DNA of 49,178 bases from a virus: IMG/VR virus record IMGVR_UViG_3300037247_001236, positions 1-49,178 of that record; one strand, written 5' to 3'. Position 1 is the first letter of the stretch; every line of letters begins with the position of its first letter. Of this stretch, positions 3,838 to 33,397 are shown piece by piece. The notes below the pieces were generated by a model, which worked only from the letters and a program-made list of their open reading frames with translations, was not told the origin of the DNA and did no database searches. Both the position numbers and the translations under genes were made by a program.

Positions 3838-6800
3838 CTACCGTCCCTTCCGGCCGGTCGGTTCAAGCATGGGCTCGCTCGCGACTAGCTCGGGGTGAGT
3901 TTGATCGTCCACCTGGGTTCCGGAGACCTTGATCTGCAACCGCTTTGCTCGATGCACAGGCCCGACGTGAACCATTCCATCAGCGCTGCCAATCGCCTTC
4001 CCGGCGAATTGCAGGTTGTTGCCGTCAGCGTCGACGTCGATCGTCACTGCCGCGGCGGCCCCGCCGAACGATCGCTCAACGAACTCTAGGGAGACGGTGC
4101 TGTGCTTCTCGCCAAACGAGTCTCCGTAGGAATGCGTGCCAAATTGATAGAACCAGTTGAAGGCAACCCCCCCGTCCGCCTTTCCATCTACCAGCCGGTA
4201 GAGCTTGGCTCCGGGGCCAGCGAACACGACGACTTCGGTGCCCGGCACGGCCACCGCAGAGTCCCATTCTCGGCCAAGGAACATGCAGCGCATGGGGATG
4301 TCCCATAGGGTCCATTCTCTCGTCTCGAGGTCATAGACCATGTTCAGCCACGAATAGCCGCTTCCGGTGTCGTTGACGATGACCGAGAAGATGATCCGGT
4401 TGTTGTCCGGGTCGAGCACGCCGGAACAGAAATACCAACTGTCGAAGTCGGCATCGAAGATGTCGGTATCATGCCAATTCTTACGGACCAGGCTCTTTGC
4501 GGTCTTTATCAGGTTGCGGCCGATCAGTCGCGTTACACCCTCGGCATAGAAGTAGGGCCACCCCTTTGCGTTCATCCAAACCAGGGCCGCGGGAGTGTCA
4601 GGTAGAGTAGCCGCCCGCACGACACACCAATGCGAGGCAAAGCCGGCGGCGCCTTCCAACGGCCGGACGCTGCTCTCTAACACATCGCCTATCGACCGCG
4701 GATCGGAAGCGATCACCTTCTCTGTCATCCCGATCAGAGCGAGCCCGCCGAAAGAATGGACGCCCGTAAATGGCATGTCGGTCGCCTGGTCCATTGCGGG
4801 TTCGATGTAGCCTGAATCCGGGACGTACTCGAAACCTAGTTGCCCAACCCGAAGGGTCCCGGCAACCGGCGGCTCACTGATCCACAGGTTGTAATCGCCT
4901 GGGGTCATGCTGGCCCAGAGCGAAGTCTGGTTGTGGATTGCCACATAGTTCGCATTGGCCGGCGGATAACCGTTGTTCACCATGATCCGATTCGTGTCCG
5001 CCGCCTCGGTGCTGGTGTCTGCGAGGGTATCCGTGAAGGTTTCTAGTGATGCGTCGACATCGGCGATGAGGAACCAATCGCCGCGGACCTGCCCCGCTGG
5101 CAATCCGTCCTCATTCGGGTAGCCCGCCTTACTGCCCAGTCTCTTCCGAAAGATGCGTACCCGGTCGATGAGCGGGCCGGTAGGTATTCCCTCACCATCG
5201 CCGTCAAACCACAGCGTACTCGGATTGGTCCAGTTGAGTCTTAATTGGCCGGCGCTGGACTCGCCAGAGTCAGTGCGGCCCTTGAGTTCGATCGACGGCT
5301 TGCTTTCCAGTCGCAGGGTCGTGCTGTAATAGACGAGCCTGTAGGAGTAGTAGCCGTCCAAGTCGCCGGAGCCCGAGGGCGGGAAGTCGATGTTTGGTTG
5401 GACCAACGGCAAGCCGGCCGGTCGCAAGTACATCCGATGGTCGGTCTCCGTCCCCCCCTCTTGGACGCGCGTAATCAGCGGCGGCGTGCCCCCGGTCGAT
5501 GTCAGGGCCGGTGTGTCTTGGCCGGACCAAATGCCTGAGAACCGGACAATAAACAGCCGATCTCCGGCAGATGGTGAATCATCAACTCGTTCGACTATCA
5601 CGTTGTCGACCGACGCCAGGGCTTCCAAGGCTGCTATGACCTGGGCTCCCCCACTGCTATAGCTCAGGTTGCCGGTTGTCTCGCCGTTGAAGGTAAGGGT
5701 GAAGGTCGCCCCTCCGTTGTACGTTTGCAGGTTCCAGATCGTGTCGCCAAGGACATAGTTGAAGACGTAGCCGCCGCTTCCGTCGGCGATCAGCATTCCA
5801 CCCTTCCCAGTGTTGATCCCGGCGCCTTGCCAAGCATAAGTCGCCCGGCCCGATTTGGTAGAAAAGGGCTCCCCTGGGCCCGCGTCGGCATCCCGGTCGT
5901 TCATGCACCAGAAGCTCGGCGTAACGCCTGCCCCATCCTTGTAGCCTGGTCGAATGAGAAAGGCCTGGTCGGAGTCAGAGAACCATATGCCGTAATCTGA
6001 TGCCTGGCCGACGGTGTCGAGCATTTGGAAGAGTACGAGGTCTTTGGTGAACTCGGTTGCCCCGTCGACGCCCAACAACTGGCGGCGGATGTCGGTAGCC
6101 GAGATTATCTCCACCCCAGAGGTGTCAGTCAGGGCCTTGAATACCAGCGAGGTCGTGCGGTGGAAGAAGTACATCCGGGTGCCGGCCGGATCGAGGGCAA
6201 TTCCGCCAGGGTCGCCGCCCGCATTGGGAATGACAATCACCTGGTTTGAGCCGTCCAAGGCTGATCGGCGGACACTATCGTCGAGGGCCTGCAACCAGTA
6301 GATGTAGTTGTTGGTCAGATCGAGGGCCAGCCGGGTAATCTGCCAAATGGTCGCGGTGATAACTACAGTGGGAGATTGGGCGGCGCCCAGGGGTACGCTG
6401 TAGATTTTATTCTCTGAGATGTTCGAGAAGTAGGCGATCTCGGTGCCAGTATCAATGTCGATGTCGAACGTAGTGCCTCCGACATCGCAGACCTCCTCGT
6501 CATTCAGCCCATCATCATCACAGCGCCGGACCGTATCGCCCGTGCCGGTGGTGTAGTAGATTCTGGCTTGGGGGGGGGAGGGATCGTTGTAGTAGGCCAT
6601 GCCATTGAGAGGCCCCCCAGGGGTCAGCACGTCGGCCGAAGTCCCGCCGGGGATCAGCTTGTTATAGACCCTGATCTTGGTGCCATTCCAGTAGAAGATG
6701 CGAGTGCCGGGTACGTCGAGGGTAAAGCTGTAGACCGGTTCGCTGCTTATCACCTTGGCGGCGTTGGTGCCGTCGAAGTCCATGTACCAGAGGTCTCCAC

Positions 6801-10776: not shown

Positions 10777-11769
10777 TTACGCGCCTCCGCCGATCTGTCC
10801 CGCGGCCTGCATTTTTTCTCTTCGCTCCCGGATAACGTCGCGGAATCGCCGTCCGTTTCGCCGATCCTTCAATGCCTCTTGTTCTTGCTGGGACCTTCCC
10901 GATGCCGGCGCCGCCCCTGGAGCGGCGAGCGTGGTGCTGTCTTTCCGTTGCTTTTCCCGCTCGATCGCGTCGTCGGTTTTCTCCTTGGCGGTTTGCTTCT
11001 TCTTCCACTTGATGGCCGATGAGTAGCGTTCGGTCTGTTGGATCACGAGGGCCCCGAAGTCCTCGACGGCGTACTGGCCGGTTCGAGCGGCATTCATCAG
11101 GTCTGCCTTCACCCAGCCCGCCGGCTCCTTGTTTTGGCCGTCCGCGAAGCAGTTGACATTCGCGATCAGGTTGTCGATCGTTCTCTCGTAATAATCCTTG
11201 CGGGCAACGTTCGTGGCTTCCTCACGAGCACCCGCGATGGTTTTGTTGAGGGCCTCGACTTGTTCGCGGATCACCTTGCGCTCTGCCGACGCTTCCCGTT
11301 GGGCCTGCAAGACCTGTCTGGTCTGGGGCTCGATATCACCATCCTCGATGCCGTCGACGAGAGGCGCCGGGGCGGCGGGCGCGGCGGGCGCGGCGGGCGC
11401 GGCCGGGATCTGATATTGGGCCCTGAGTCGCCGGTTCTCTTCTTGCAGAGCCGCCGTGTTGCGCCGGGTCATCTCGAGTTCTGTTTCCGCGCTGTAAGCG
11501 GGGGTGGGGGTTTCGTCGGGCGGCGCGGGCGCTGGGGCTGGCTCTTTCGTCGGCTCGGCCGCGGGCTCGGTCGCCGATGGATCCACAATGGGCGGATCTC
11601 CGTCAGCCCCTTCGTCGGGCGCACCCTCGGCGCCGGCCTCGGCCGAGGCGTCTGGCTCGGGAGTTCCCGCATCTGTTGGGTCGGGGGGGTCCGTCTGTAG
11701 GTCCGGTCCTGACAGGGCAAACGGGGCAAACAAACACGCCGCGGCCAGACACATCAGTAGCTCAATCAT
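10777..11769 (-). CDS. Scaffolding protein
   Basis: 330 residues, with ATG preceded by AAGGAG. The first about 20 residues are hydrophobic; residues about 25-110 are Pro/Glu/Asp/Ala-rich and acidic. A small Ala-Pro repeat ('PAAPAAPAAPAAP') follows near 125, then a long charged coiled coil (about 145-270) and a basic C terminus. Acidic disorder plus coiled coil plus basic capsid-binding tail is the usual build of podovirus scaffolds. The position between portal and capsid genes agrees. The hydrophobic start is odd for a scaffold; the true start may be slightly downstream. Confidence 0.85.
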   Translation of the reverse strand: MIELLMCLAAACLFAPFALSGPDLQTDPPDPTDAGTPEPDASAEAGAEGAPDEGADGDPPIVDPSATEPAAEPTKEPAPAPAPPDETPTPAYSAETELEMTRRNTAALQEENRRLRAQYQIPAAPAAPAAPAAPAPLVDGIEDGDIEPQTRQVLQAQREASAERKVIREQVEALNKTIAGAREEATNVARKDYYERTIDNLIANVNCFADGQNKEPAGWVKADLMNAARTGQYAVEDFGALVIQQTERYSSAIKWKKKQTAKEKTDDAIEREKQRKDSTTLAAPGAAPASGRSQQEQEALKDRRNGRRFRDVIRERREKMQAAGQIGGGA

Positions 11770-20324: not shown

Positions 20325-21341
20325 TCATCCCTCAAGCGCTAGTACGGCCTGCCCCAGCCGTTTGGCCGCCATCGCGCAGTAGTCGGTGTTCAGTTCAATG
20401 TTGATAGAGCCGTGCCCCAAACGCTGGGCAACTACGGCCACAGTGCCGGCCCCGGAGAAAGGGTCCATCACCACACCCCCCTCGGGGCACCCGGCCAGGA
20501 TGCAGGGCTCCACGAGCTTCTCGGGAAACGTAGCGAAGTGGGCCCCCTTGTAGCACTGGGTAGGGATGGTCCACACGTCGCGACGGTTGCGAGTTTCCCG
20601 AATGGCCCGGAAAGCCTCCTTACCAGGTAGGACGTTCTTCCCCCCGAAGGATCCCCGGGGCTTGTCCTCTCGGGAGCCGGGCTTCTTCATGGAGCGGCGT
20701 TTCTGGTTGTATTGGGTGTTCGGCCCCTGGCCCATTCGTGGCCGCTCTGCATTCGATTCGCCGCAAGGTTCTGATATGGCCGCGGCGTCGTAGTGGTAGC
20801 GGGCTGACTTGGTAAGCAGAAACAGGTGCTCGTGGGCCTTGGTGGGTCGATCTGTAACCGACTCCGGCATGGGGTTCGGCTTGGCCCAGATGATGTCCGA
20901 GCGCAAGTACCACCCATCGGCCTGGAGAGCAAGGGCCACCCGCCAGGGGATGCCGATGAGGTCCTTCGGCTTGAGGCCAGATACGTTAGCTCCTGATCGG
21001 TTCTGATACTTTCCTTGCTCCGGCCTCCACTGTTTCTTACCCCCAGGATGACCACCGTCCCGACCAGCATTGTAGCAGTCGCCGAGGTTTAGCCACAGCG
21101 TCCCGTCCTCCCGCAACACCCGCCGCACAGCCCGGAAAACCTCCACCATGTTTGACACGTACTCGTCAGGAGTCGACTCAAGACCAAGCTGGCCACCAAC
21201 CCCGTAGTCCCGCAAACCCCAATACGGTGGACTCGTCACCATGCAATGCACCGACCCCGCCTCCAGCGCCGGCAATACCTCCCGGCAGTCGCCGCGATAG
21301 ATCGTGATGCCGCTGTGTTGGTAATATGGAACCGTCATCAT
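20325..21341 (-). CDS. DNA methyltransferase (beta class, N4-cytosine or N6-adenine)
   Basis: 338 residues from the ATG at 21341 (a second ATG follows at 21338); the frame is open to 21512 but the upstream part lacks family features. The catalytic motif IV 'TSPPY' is near residues 36-40 and the AdoMet-binding motif I 'DPFSGAGT' near 293-300. That order (IV before I) is beta class. SPPY favours N4-cytosine methylation; the variable middle region would set the target. No restriction enzyme gene is nearby, so it is probably an orphan methylase guarding against host restriction. It is likely driven by the promoter at 21347-21375. Confidence 0.9.
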   Translation of the reverse strand: MMTVPYYQHSGITIYRGDCREVLPALEAGSVHCMVTSPPYWGLRDYGVGGQLGLESTPDEYVSNMVEVFRAVRRVLREDGTLWLNLGDCYNAGRDGGHPGGKKQWRPEQGKYQNRSGANVSGLKPKDLIGIPWRVALALQADGWYLRSDIIWAKPNPMPESVTDRPTKAHEHLFLLTKSARYHYDAAAISEPCGESNAERPRMGQGPNTQYNQKRRSMKKPGSREDKPRGSFGGKNVLPGKEAFRAIRETRNRRDVWTIPTQCYKGAHFATFPEKLVEPCILAGCPEGGVVMDPFSGAGTVAVVAQRLGHGSINIELNTDYCAMAAKRLGQAVLALEG

Positions 21342-21853: not shown

Positions 21854-22195
21854 CTACGTGAGATAGCGCGCGGACACGAGGCGCCGAGCGCGGCCGATGG
21901 CGTCGATGGCCTCGCTGATTTCGCCCGAGGCTTCGAGGGTGGCCAGGGTATGGGCCGACTGGTTGGCGAGGGCAAGGGCGTCGAAGGTAGCGTTTGCGAG
22001 GTCTGTAGCGGGCGTAGGGGGTGGGGGTGCTGGGGCTGAGGCTTCGGCCGGCCGTGTGGTCTTCGCCTCATCCGGTGTCGGCGGGGCTGGTGGTGCTGCC
22101 GGTGGCTGGCCGTTTGGCGTGGGCGAGGCCGGCGGGTTGGGACCGGTTGTTTGGAGTCTGTCGGCTTTGCGTTGTTGGCTGTTTCTGCTCATCAT
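21854..22195 (-). CDS. Pro/Ala-rich small protein
   Basis: 113 residues, with AAAGGA before ATG. Residues about 20-65 are a Pro/Ala-rich linker, followed by an Ala-rich helical domain ending 'GRARRLVSARYLT'. Its first 128 bases overlap the upstream 206-residue gene in another frame, so one of the two may be shorter than drawn. The good SD site supports this one. Function unknown. Confidence 0.6.
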   Translation of the reverse strand: MMSRNSQQRKADRLQTTGPNPPASPTPNGQPPAAPPAPPTPDEAKTTRPAEASAPAPPPPTPATDLANATFDALALANQSAHTLATLEASGEISEAIDAIGRARRLVSARYLT

Positions 22196-29141: not shown

Positions 29142-30464
29142 TCATTGGGCCCATTGTTCTCCGACTGGACGGAAGGTTGTCGTTGGGGCGTGAAAGGTAA
29201 AACTGACTTGACCTAGTGGGCCTTCGCGTTGTTTGTGAATCAGTAGGGCAATCGTGTAGCTGGAGGGCCGGGTATGCGGAGGCTCAACAGGGGGATGCAA
29301 AAACATCACCACGTCGCTGTCCTGCTCGAGCGAACCCGAGTCGCGCAGGTCGCTCAGGTTCGGCGTGCGTTTCTCTTTCACCGAAGCCCGGGACAGTTGG
29401 TGGAGGCATAGCACCGGCAGTTCTAACTCCCGCGCCAGATTCTTCACATCGCGACTGAGGTTCGACACCGCCGCGTACCGGCCCTGTTTCGCCCCCGCCG
29501 GATCATCGATCAGGCCGAGGTAGTCGATAACCACCAGGCCGATGCCGTACTGCTGCTTCATCCGCCGGGCCCGGGCGCGCAGGTCCGCCGCGGTCAGGCC
29601 CGTCGAATCGTCGATGACGATGTTCTCGGGAACTCGCTCGACATCCAGGCTGGCCCGTTCGGTTTCCCCTAGGCCGTCCGGCCGAAGCAAGAGTTGACCG
29701 TCGATGCCCGTCCGCATGGACAGCAGCCGCCGGGCCACCCCCTCTTTGCACATTTCCAGGGAGAAGAACGCGACCGGAACGCCCTCGGCCCCAGCGACGT
29801 GATTCGCAATCTGGAGAGCAAAACTGGTCTTGCCGACCGCCGGCCGGGCGGCCAGCATTATCAGTTGCCCGGGCCGCAGACCGCCGAGCTTGTCGTCCAG
29901 GGGCGCGAACCCTGTGGAGATCCCGGAATCAACTTCGCCGGCCAGAATCCGGTCGACAACCTGCTGGACCACCTCGGAGAGCCGCACGGGCTCCCTGGTG
30001 TTCCCCATGCCCCGCAAGCGAAAGGCCGAGGTCTCCGCTAAGTGGATTAGGCTGTCAGCCTGGGCGGACGCGTCATAGGCGCTACTGGCGATGCGGCTGC
30101 CGAGCAAGATCAGGTCTCGCAGGCGCCATTTTTCGCGGACGATTCGAGCGTAGTGCTGGACGTTGGCGGCCGAGGGCACGGAGTTGATGAGGTCCAGCAG
30201 GTAGTCCCGGCCGCCGATTTCCTCCAACTGGCCTCGGGCCCGTAGGTCAGCCTCCAGTGTGATGATGTCGATCGCCCCGTCGTTGATGTGCAGGTCGACG
30301 ACTGCCTCGAAGATGACCCGATGGCGAGGCAGGTAGAATGCCTCGGTCGATCCGCGGGGTAGCACATGGAGGGCCAGGTCGATCGCCTCGTTGGGTGCGA
30401 TCAGCATTGCGCCGAGGAGCGACATCTCGGCTTCGAGGTCCTGGGGGGGGGTGCGATCGTCCAT
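29142..30464 (-). CDS. dnaB: Replicative DNA helicase, DnaB family
   Basis: 440 residues from the ATG at 30464. The N-terminal domain starts 'PPQDLEAEMSLLGAMLI', typical of DnaB. The RecA-like domain carries Walker A 'ARPAVGKTS' (about 206-214), 'FSLEM' (about 234-238) and Walker B 'VVIDYLGL' (about 311-318). Length agrees with bacterial and phage DnaB. No loader or primase was recognised, so host DnaG probably primes. The putative initiator and iteron array lie 2.5 kb upstream in the same transcription unit. Confidence 0.93.
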   Translation of the reverse strand: MDDRTPPQDLEAEMSLLGAMLIAPNEAIDLALHVLPRGSTEAFYLPRHRVIFEAVVDLHINDGAIDIITLEADLRARGQLEEIGGRDYLLDLINSVPSAANVQHYARIVREKWRLRDLILLGSRIASSAYDASAQADSLIHLAETSAFRLRGMGNTREPVRLSEVVQQVVDRILAGEVDSGISTGFAPLDDKLGGLRPGQLIMLAARPAVGKTSFALQIANHVAGAEGVPVAFFSLEMCKEGVARRLLSMRTGIDGQLLLRPDGLGETERASLDVERVPENIVIDDSTGLTAADLRARARRMKQQYGIGLVVIDYLGLIDDPAGAKQGRYAAVSNLSRDVKNLARELELPVLCLHQLSRASVKEKRTPNLSDLRDSGSLEQDSDVVMFLHPPVEPPHTRPSSYTIALLIHKQREGPLGQVSFTFHAPTTTFRPVGEQWAQ

Positions 30465-30465
30465 G

Positions 30466-30690
30466 TCAGTCCTGCACCCAGCTTGGTCGCCATGCATCCG
30501 GATCGCCATCCAGCCCCGAGGTGCCCGGCGGAGATACGTTACCCACGCCGGAAGGCCCCAGAGGCTCGTTCCAGCACTTCATACAGAAGGGGTAGCCATC
30601 CCTCGACTCCCTGTCGGGATCAACTCTGTGCCCGCATTGCCGGCAGATATAAGACCGCCGGCCTATCGGTTTCAGTTTTGGCCGCCGCAT
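30466..30690 (-). CDS. Zinc-ribbon microprotein
   Basis: 74 residues from the ATG at 30690 (frame open to 30783). 'YICRQCGHRV' and 'FCMKCWNEP' form one four-cysteine ribbon, with a Gly/Pro-rich tail. Its stop is one base before the dnaB start, so the two are coupled. It may help bind nucleic acid or replication proteins. Confidence 0.7.
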   Translation of the reverse strand: MRRPKLKPIGRRSYICRQCGHRVDPDRESRDGYPFCMKCWNEPLGPSGVGNVSPPGTSGLDGDPDAWRPSWVQD

Positions 30691-32536: not shown

Positions 32537-33397
32537 TCAAAAGTCCGGTCCAAGGGGTTCGGCGGACTGCTCTTTCGCCTGGTGGTAGCCCGAACCACTC
32601 GTCTTCGTCTTCACCCCCGCCAGAGCAGCCCTGAGCGTCCGGTTACGGGGCTTCTCGGCCTTGGGCGCCTCTCGGATGGCCTCAAGCACAAGCTCGGCAC
32701 TCGTCTCGGAGACCGCCTCCTCGATCGTTTCCCGCGTCCGGTGAGGCAACCTCTCGAATGGCCGGCTACCGATCAAGGCCAGCGCCTCGTCAAGCCCCTC
32801 CGGAGGTTCCCACTCCAGGGGCAAGGTCGTAATGCCGGTGTTTGGATCTGAGTGCATCACCTGAGCACGGTCCATGTGGGCCCGCCGGATTGTTCTGTTT
32901 GAGGAGGTCTTAGATGGGGTCTTAGATGGGGTCTTAGATGGGGTCTTAGATGGGGTCTTAGACCCCTTCTTAGTGGGGGTCTTAGCAGGTATACGTTTAG
33001 GTATACCAGGGGGAGGTATAGGGGGGGGTATGGGGGGGGGAAAGGAGGGGGAGAAGAACGGAAGGTCGTGGTTTGCCAAGATCCCCCGGACCCAGTTCGG
33101 CGCATGATCGTGCCAGTCATGGACGACCAATCGGTGTTCCTCTGAGGCGTCCAGCCACCGGGCGGCGACGAGGGCCTTGACGAGATCGGCCGGCTTGCCC
33201 TCCCATTCGAGGTCATCTGCGATGTCGTCATTGCTTAGACATCCGATATTGCCCTGGCGGGTCTTCGCGCTGGAGGCCGTGAGGTCCCACATGCTCTCAA
33301 GGATGCCGATGACAAGCAGCCTGCCAATCCCCAACAGCTTCATCAGCCGGCGGACTTTGCGATGGTGCCGCGTGCCCGATTTCACCGAGGCCTCCAT
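32537..33397 (-). CDS. Putative replication initiator (winged-helix start, low-complexity linker)
   Basis: 286 residues from the ATG at 33397 (frame open to 33457; no clear SD site). The N-terminal about 110 residues ('MKLLGIGRLLVIGILESMWDLT', then 'LSNDDIADDLEWEG' and 'WLVVHDWHDHAPNWV'-like text) match the winged-helix domain of phage replisome-organiser/DnaD-type proteins. A Pro-rich stretch and a repeated KTPS linker (residues about 115-165) join it to a helical C-terminal part that may bind DnaB. The linker DNA carries seven iteron-like repeats, recalling lambda O with its internal origin. The function is inferred from fold pattern and context. Confidence 0.65.
   Translation of the reverse strand: MEASVKSGTRHHRKVRRLMKLLGIGRLLVIGILESMWDLTASSAKTRQGNIGCLSNDDIADDLEWEGKPADLVKALVAARWLDASEEHRLVVHDWHDHAPNWVRGILANHDLPFFSPSFPPPIPPPIPPPGIPKRIPAKTPTKKGSKTPSKTPSKTPSKTPSKTSSNRTIRRAHMDRAQVMHSDPNTGITTLPLEWEPPEGLDEALALIGSRPFERLPHRTRETIEEAVSETSAELVLEAIREAPKAEKPRNRTLRAALAGVKTKTSGSGYHQAKEQSAEPLGPDF
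32908..32985. repeat. Iteron-like array: seven TCTTAG at 12-base spacing
   Basis: TCTTAG occurs at 32908, 32920, 32932, 32944, 32956, 32968 and 32980. The first four units are identical 12-mers (TCTTAGATGGGG). The period keeps frame, so the repeats also encode the KTPS linker. Just beyond are GTATAC palindromes and the G-rich tract. A candidate replication origin within the initiator gene. Confidence 0.65.
33009..33051 (+). other. G-quadruplex-type tract beside the iterons
   Basis: Four G-runs of at least four (33009-33013, 33021-33028, 33032-33040, 33047-33051) lie on the plus strand and encode the Pro-rich linker of the minus-strand gene. A folded quadruplex is possible. Confidence 0.5.

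Follow-up and report, generated by a model that had tools for sequence, protein, structure and literature searches.

A candidate replication origin of 12-bp CTAAG iterons within the linker of a phage initiator gene

Background

Does the array of short tandem repeats inside the initiator gene of this phage mark the origin of its replication, or does the array have another explanation? The window, by which we mean the whole stretch of DNA analysed, is a complete phage contig of 49,178 bp represented by a single virus record, and we regard it as circularly closed because the same 127 bases stand at both of its ends as a direct terminal repeat. We consider it probable, at roughly 0.85, that positions 32906-33051 are the phage replication origin, placed inside the linker of the phage's own initiator gene, opened by the initiator and loaded with DnaB.

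Results

Initiator gene and genome setting

The initiator gene is an open reading frame on the minus strand (32537-33397) encoding 286 amino acids, with an N-terminal winged helix, a linker encoded by the repeats and a variable C-terminal domain. Family alignments place the winged-helix domain, presumed to bind DNA, at approximately residues 1-110 (33068-33397, minus strand). Residues 6-99 match phrog_9474, annotated as 'replication initiation protein' (E 3.3e-16, profile positions 7-98 of 288); the profile match ends at residue 99 and the homology is thus not full-length. The near-invariant W, G and HDW positions are kept in the N-domain when it is aligned with 29 family members, and the C-terminal 118 amino acids had no match among all family proteins collected. 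The AlphaFold model of the N-domain consists of helices and a two-strand wing (mean pLDDT 83). Its top structural matches are the N-domains of the RepA_N plasmid initiators 4pql, 4pt7 and 5kbj with Z of about 6 (for 4pql, Z 6.3 and rmsd 2.9 over 83 residues), and SlyA and CRP tie with them within 1 Z. Because such values are tied with other winged helices, we take the likeness to the RepA_N fold as a hint only, and since Foldseek with the N-domain returned nothing at E < 0.001, the comparison of folds depends on Z values that are modest. No Pfam family, RepA_N included, matched the initiator sequence at E up to 0.1. A first-pass annotation of this DNA had called the gene a winged-helix replication protein, and the phrog_9474 match, the predicted winged helix and the dnaB gene downstream all agree with this assignment.

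The replicative helicase gene dnaB (29142-30509, minus strand; Pfam DnaB_C, E 3.7e-73) lies downstream of the initiator gene in the same direction, and among 66 related loci there are 19 in which dnaB directly follows the initiator gene downstream. Genes around the initiator include RecE-like and SbcC-like recombination genes. Viral contigs scanned with single proteins gave no close relatives of the initiator or of its upstream neighbour, a search for the exact two-unit iteron pattern gave no match, and the loci reached through dnaB did not carry the window's initiator family. Some features elsewhere in the window may be recorded here. Homopolymers of nine G stand at 30443-30451, near the 5' end of dnaB, and at 6570-6578, and they are possibly sites of slippage or of sequencing error. 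An open reading frame resembling a DNA methyltransferase (phrog_67) occupies 20325-21341, and near it, at 22000-22130, the plus strand is strongly G+T-rich. The open reading frame at 10777-11769, second in repeat richness among those of the window, contains tandem repeats of GCGGCGGGC and a cluster of G4 motifs at 11364-11537.

Iteron array and its excess over the protein

The array, defined from tandem-repeat and motif counts, consists of seven 12-bp units on the minus strand (32906-32989) with the core CTAAG, which reads CTTAG on the plus strand. On the plus strand TCTTAG begins at 32908, 32920, 32932, 32944, 32956, 32968 and 32980, and the identical 12-mer GGTCTTAGATGG occurs four times, at 32906, 32918, 32930 and 32942. 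In units 1, 2 and 7 the departures from the consensus are confined to the half that follows CTAAGA, and unit 3 is the dyad GGGGTCTaAGACCCC. The array is followed on the plus strand by two GTATAC dyads 12 bp apart, at 32989 and 33001 (32989-33006), and then by four G-runs, namely G5 at 33009, G8 at 33021, G9 at 33032 and G5 at 33047. Along the coding strand of the linker, the C-tracts, in which two ATA codons lie, come before GGTATACCTAAACGTATACC, which has another two, and the seven CTAAG cores at 12-bp steps come last. The TRF score of the array (114) is the highest among the arrays of the window, and a second CTAAGACC array was not found in the genome. The positions and counts that the first-pass annotation had given for the units, palindromes and G-runs are all correct, as is its reading of the array as an in-frame stretch coding a KTPS linker (the peptide is ...AKTPTKKGSKTPSKTPSKTPSKTPSK).

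In order to compare the repeats with what the protein requires, expected values were obtained by shuffling synonymous codons with the protein held fixed. In-frame 8-mer repeat pairs number 95 in the initiator gene, where the shuffles give 8.2 (p at the floor of 0.005), and the linker has seven CTAAG against 1.25 expected under the synonymous shuffle (p at the floor of 0.002). The pairs are nearly all in frame (95 against 2 out of frame), unlike most of the family. Codon usage in the linker is also peculiar. ATA makes up 9.8% of isoleucine codons in the phage, and the four ATA codons of the initiator gene are all in the linker (residues 123, 127, 132 and 136), with none at the other 11 isoleucines; they sit in the GTATAC dyads and the adjoining C-tract. 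Codon adaptation falls to 0.36 at residues 121-140, compared with 0.63-0.89 elsewhere.

Stability, skew and G-runs

By nearest-neighbour energies, no other 100 bp in the genome is as unstable as positions 32907-33006 (-130.1, the next being -131.4), which include the array and both GTATAC dyads, and we regard them as a candidate unwinding tract. At shorter scales the tract ranks fourth (80 bp) and tenth (40 bp), with the least stable 40-mer nearby at 32966-33005. No A+T-rich block is present in the window's linker. Across the family, the least stable 40-mer of the gene is in the linker for 61 of 96 genes, compared with about 27% predicted from length alone.

The array tract is the strongest local GC-skew spot of the window at scales of 60, 100 and 150 nt. 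The genome-wide skew, which had been suggested as a check with its minimum at the array, does not point there: the detrended minimum is at 21857 and the cumulative skew has no turn at the array. We judged genome GC skew to be uninformative as an origin locator because the phage is coded almost wholly on one strand and the skew is weak.

The four G-runs (33009-33051, plus strand; C-tracts on the coding strand) are strongly strand-asymmetric and fit a G4 motif. Among 97 family linkers, 22 have paired C-tracts on the coding strand, compared with none of the N-domains and 3 C-terminal parts, and these tracts usually stand right behind the micro-repeats. Given this recurrence we consider the tract to be a recurrent module. 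Some of the paired C-tracts, for example CCCCCTACCCCCTAAAGGGG (L016, L064, L072, L074 and L086), can pair as hairpins with a G-run. The G-quadruplex, which had been singled out as a specific element, is not supported as such, with G4 motifs in a minority of the linkers and on either strand. A reading centred on it was rejected for this strand inconsistency among relatives.

Linker repeats in the initiator family

The family sample consisted of 143 related loci, 77 from viral and bacterial genomes and 66 from the window's own subfamily, which were gathered with narrower alignments, an eight-member alignment being too diverse to scan with. In the first set (76 genes) the linkers have 841 in-frame 8-mer pairs where 109 are expected and 863 out-of-frame pairs where 72 are expected; in the N-domains the counts are 43 and 26, with 25 and 20 expected. 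The linkers of the second set (59 genes) have 2034 in-frame and 644 out-of-frame pairs against 251 and 41 expected, and the excess is significant in 50 of the 59 genes. The test was significant in 29 of 37 family genes compared with 12 of 111 control neighbour genes, and lambda O, whose origin is known, scores positive in it as a positive control. One DNA word may be read in two or three frames, as seen in FP_Lagaffe and in Microcystis phage Mwe-Yong1318-1, where ACAAACCGTTCA is read in three. Out-of-frame repeats therefore cannot be a requirement of the peptide.

Where two relatives agree in the residue, they also agree in the codon at 499 of 525 sites (95%) inside repeats, compared with 67% in N-domains and 66% elsewhere, where the sites had to be repeats in both genes, which perhaps inflates the identity somewhat, and the pairs compared within one clade are non-independent. 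Codon identity is highest in the repeats in all twelve clades. This synonymous conservation is a measure of the family rather than of the window's own array, for which close relatives were not found. An example is given by L030, L034 and L079, in which a 19-codon block made of the micro-repeats and the following DNA is identical to the letter, with N-domain codon differences of 35-38 of 95 between L030 and the other two and of 25 of 97 between L034 and L079. Past the micro-repeats, the block GATCCTTTAAGTGCT is identical to the letter in all five of L030, L034, L079, L004 (Shimadzu) and L078, and it is possibly a further origin element.

Linkers contain 389 dyads against 250 expected, and N-domains show no excess (201 against 220). 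The sharing of repeated 6-mers grows with N-domain identity, from 0.02-0.03 below 35% to 0.15 at 60-70%, a trend that cannot separate coevolution from common descent. Many family linkers have iterons followed by micro-repeats of 5 or 6 nt, and the linker peptides vary widely. In L026, L028, L033, L057 and L086 the linker has an apparent insert resembling an HNH nuclease (CRYCGK...WKDRKG), with the DNA repeats displaced behind it.

The CTAAG core in the clade of the window

A tree built from 70 N-domains places the window in a clade of 13 rows (support 97/87), which includes every gene marked as a carrier of CTAAG iterons. Three members (L121, L130 and L141) have six or seven CTAAG each, nearly all at 12-bp steps, and L123 has two with one 12-bp step. 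The N-domains of the relatives sharing CTAAG are about 50% identical or less to that of the window, and their linker peptides differ: AKEG in L121, TKQP/PPKE in L130, AKEF/PPKE in L141 and PPKE in L123, compared with KTPS in the window. Residues beside the core change among A, P, S and T, and many of the sites are dyadic about the central A, such as CTCCTAAGGAG, TTGCTAAGCAA and GGGGTCTAAGACCCC. When repeated 5-mers were ranked for clade specificity with the window left out, CTAAG came first, in 7 of 9 weighted members and 3 of 57 outside, although the shared CTAAG had already been spotted by eye before the ranking. CTAAG is absent from L140 and from three rows of the clade (L126, L128 and L138), and these three repeat another word, TACTCCAGTACC or AACTCAGTACC, with spacing partly out of frame. 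The iteron clade usually has AC-rich pentamers after the iterons; the window does not have them, and its asymmetric tract is on the other side.

A core shared by the clade and embedded in differing peptides is the best single argument that the array would be a protein-binding site and not a peptide repeat. The expectation that repeat number and synonymous positions would not drift freely in relatives was borne out in part: the number varies from 2 to 7 copies, and the synonymous sites and the core are not drifting freely.

Discussion

Alternative explanations

Neutral slippage would produce the array if a disordered linker tolerates in-frame expansion by 12 bp and the DNA has no function. Four identical adjacent units, a frame kept by all units and linker peptides that vary widely among relatives would all be expected from such a process. 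However, the core and the 12-bp pitch are common to relatives that have other peptides and N-domains of about 50% identity or less, the family repeats are synonymously conserved and often out of frame, the excess is confined to the initiator linker and is not seen in neighbour genes, and rare ATA codons are clustered, which together make slippage an improbable account. A demand of the protein itself is harder still to credit. If the linker needed a repeated basic KTPS/PPPI peptide as a flexible arm or for non-specific DNA contact, the DNA repeats would simply follow, as nearly all window repeats being in frame and a lysine every four residues, in the clade too, might indicate. Synonymous shuffles of the same protein nevertheless give far fewer repeats, the clade keeps CTAAG while adjacent residues switch, and the reading of one DNA word in several frames in Mwe-Yong1318-1 and FP_Lagaffe is not what a peptide would dictate.

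Iterons can also serve as control elements, as in iteron plasmids, and the initiator might bind the repeats as an operator or a copy-control (incompatibility) site with the origin located elsewhere. The absence of a turn in GC skew at the array and the second origin that SPP1 has outside gene 38 (PMC6316719) are in keeping with this. Yet the genome has no second CTAAGACC array, the least stable 100 bp falls on the array, and known in-gene arrays on this plan are origins, so that we find a purely regulatory site unlikely. It is very improbable that a G-quadruplex in the G-run tract is the functional element, in replication or in transcription, and that the repeats are incidental to it. The tract does fit a G4 motif, the GC skew of the window is strongest there, and paired C-tracts recur in family linkers, but few linkers have G4 motifs, and these lie on one strand in some and on the other in others, the clade member L121 has its G-runs on the strand opposite to the window's, and further G4 motifs are found elsewhere in the window.

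Origin reading and proposed mechanism

The origin in the initiator gene, which the first-pass annotation had put forward as a candidate, is supported by the repeats and their excess over protein need, by the CTAAG core and 12-bp pitch in relatives, by synonymous conservation in the family, by the positive score of lambda O and by the low stability of the 100-bp tract. As in the known in-gene iteron origins, tandem repeats lie between the DNA-binding and the C-terminal parts of the initiator, the repeats are constrained as DNA (for the window through its clade and not through close orthologues), and an easily melted, strand-asymmetric tract adjoins them, though it is not A+T-rich. Points that count against the origin are that the four identical units may have arisen by recent slippage and that a pitch of 12 bp is not a whole helical turn.

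We infer binding, melting, a captured strand, helicase loading and the status of sole origin in the following way. The N-domain of the initiator would bind the CTAAG iterons, with several copies side by side and cooperatively. The bound assembly would strain and open the array and the GTATAC dyads, which together make up a weakly paired tract, and the strand-asymmetric DNA may keep one strand exposed. The C-terminal domain may then help to recruit the phage DnaB helicase, leading to theta replication. This scheme is modelled on lambda O, SPP1 gp38 and pSK41 Rep.

For the family as a whole we tentatively propose, at slightly less than even odds, a common design in which clade-specific and often dyad iterons of about 8-13 bp are followed by strand-asymmetric micro-repeats of 5 or 6 nt, which would take over from an A+T-rich tract the task of unwinding and of capturing a single strand in a sequence-specific way, often with paired C-tracts behind them. 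The N-domain and the iteron word would coevolve and the peptide would be largely a by-product. The window would represent a rearranged and GC-rich form of this design, with the iterons serving as the melting tract. Synonymously conserved repeats in the linker of a winged-helix initiator would offer a way of locating phage origins from sequence, uncultured phages included. Low-complexity linkers such as RVDQS, VPNPT and KTPS would become readable DNA signals, and the specificity of initiators for iterons would become testable over many natural pairs. The window also raises the question of how the DNA is opened at a GC-rich origin that lacks an A+T-rich element.

Comparison with known systems

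Origins inside initiator genes are already known. What is new in the window is a set of 12-bp frame-locked iterons in GC-rich DNA with no A+T-rich element, in a phage for which the collections searched gave no close relatives. The pattern of iterons and micro-repeats seen across the family was not found in the literature searched (open-licence papers only), which is weak evidence of novelty.

The lambda origin in gene O (PMC5043065, PMC6022878, PMC7466680) has the same plan as the window, with dyad iterons arrayed in tandem in the central part of the initiator gene, which codes for the linker, and a strand-asymmetric melting tract adjoining; the lambda unwinding tract is also strongly strand-asymmetric (PMC5043065). 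The likeness to lambda O that had been noted earlier is upheld, lambda O being positive in the same repeat test, as a likeness of layout. The lambda iterons, however, are 18-bp dyads at 20-24 bp spacing compared with units of 12 bp in the window, the tract beside them is A+T-rich whereas that of the window is C/A-rich, and lambda P loads the host DnaB whereas this phage codes its own. In SPP1, gp38 binds direct repeats within its own gene 38 (oriL), beside an unwinding element, and the phage has a DnaB-type helicase (PMC6316719). It shares with the window both the in-gene repeats of the initiator and the phage DnaB-type helicase, but it also has oriR and a separate loader, gp39, and the window has no second array.

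The Rep protein of pSK41 has a winged-helix N-domain of about 120 amino acids and four Rep boxes central in rep, and the protein can do without the linker that the origin encodes (PMC5703833). The window resembles it in the winged-helix N-domain and in repeats central in the initiator gene, and RepA_N N-domains are its top structural matches, at the modest Z shared with unrelated winged helices. However, the Rep boxes of pSK41, a staphylococcal plasmid, are A+T-rich, and the window's initiator has no Pfam match. The phrog_9474 initiators of Microcystis phage Mwe-Yong1318-1, Paenibacillus phage Harrison and Faecalibacterium phage FP_Lagaffe have a homologous N-domain and DNA-repeat linkers like those of the window. 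They differ in that their iteron words depend on the clade, their repeats often cross frames, and many have pentamer or hexamer micro-repeats after the iterons.
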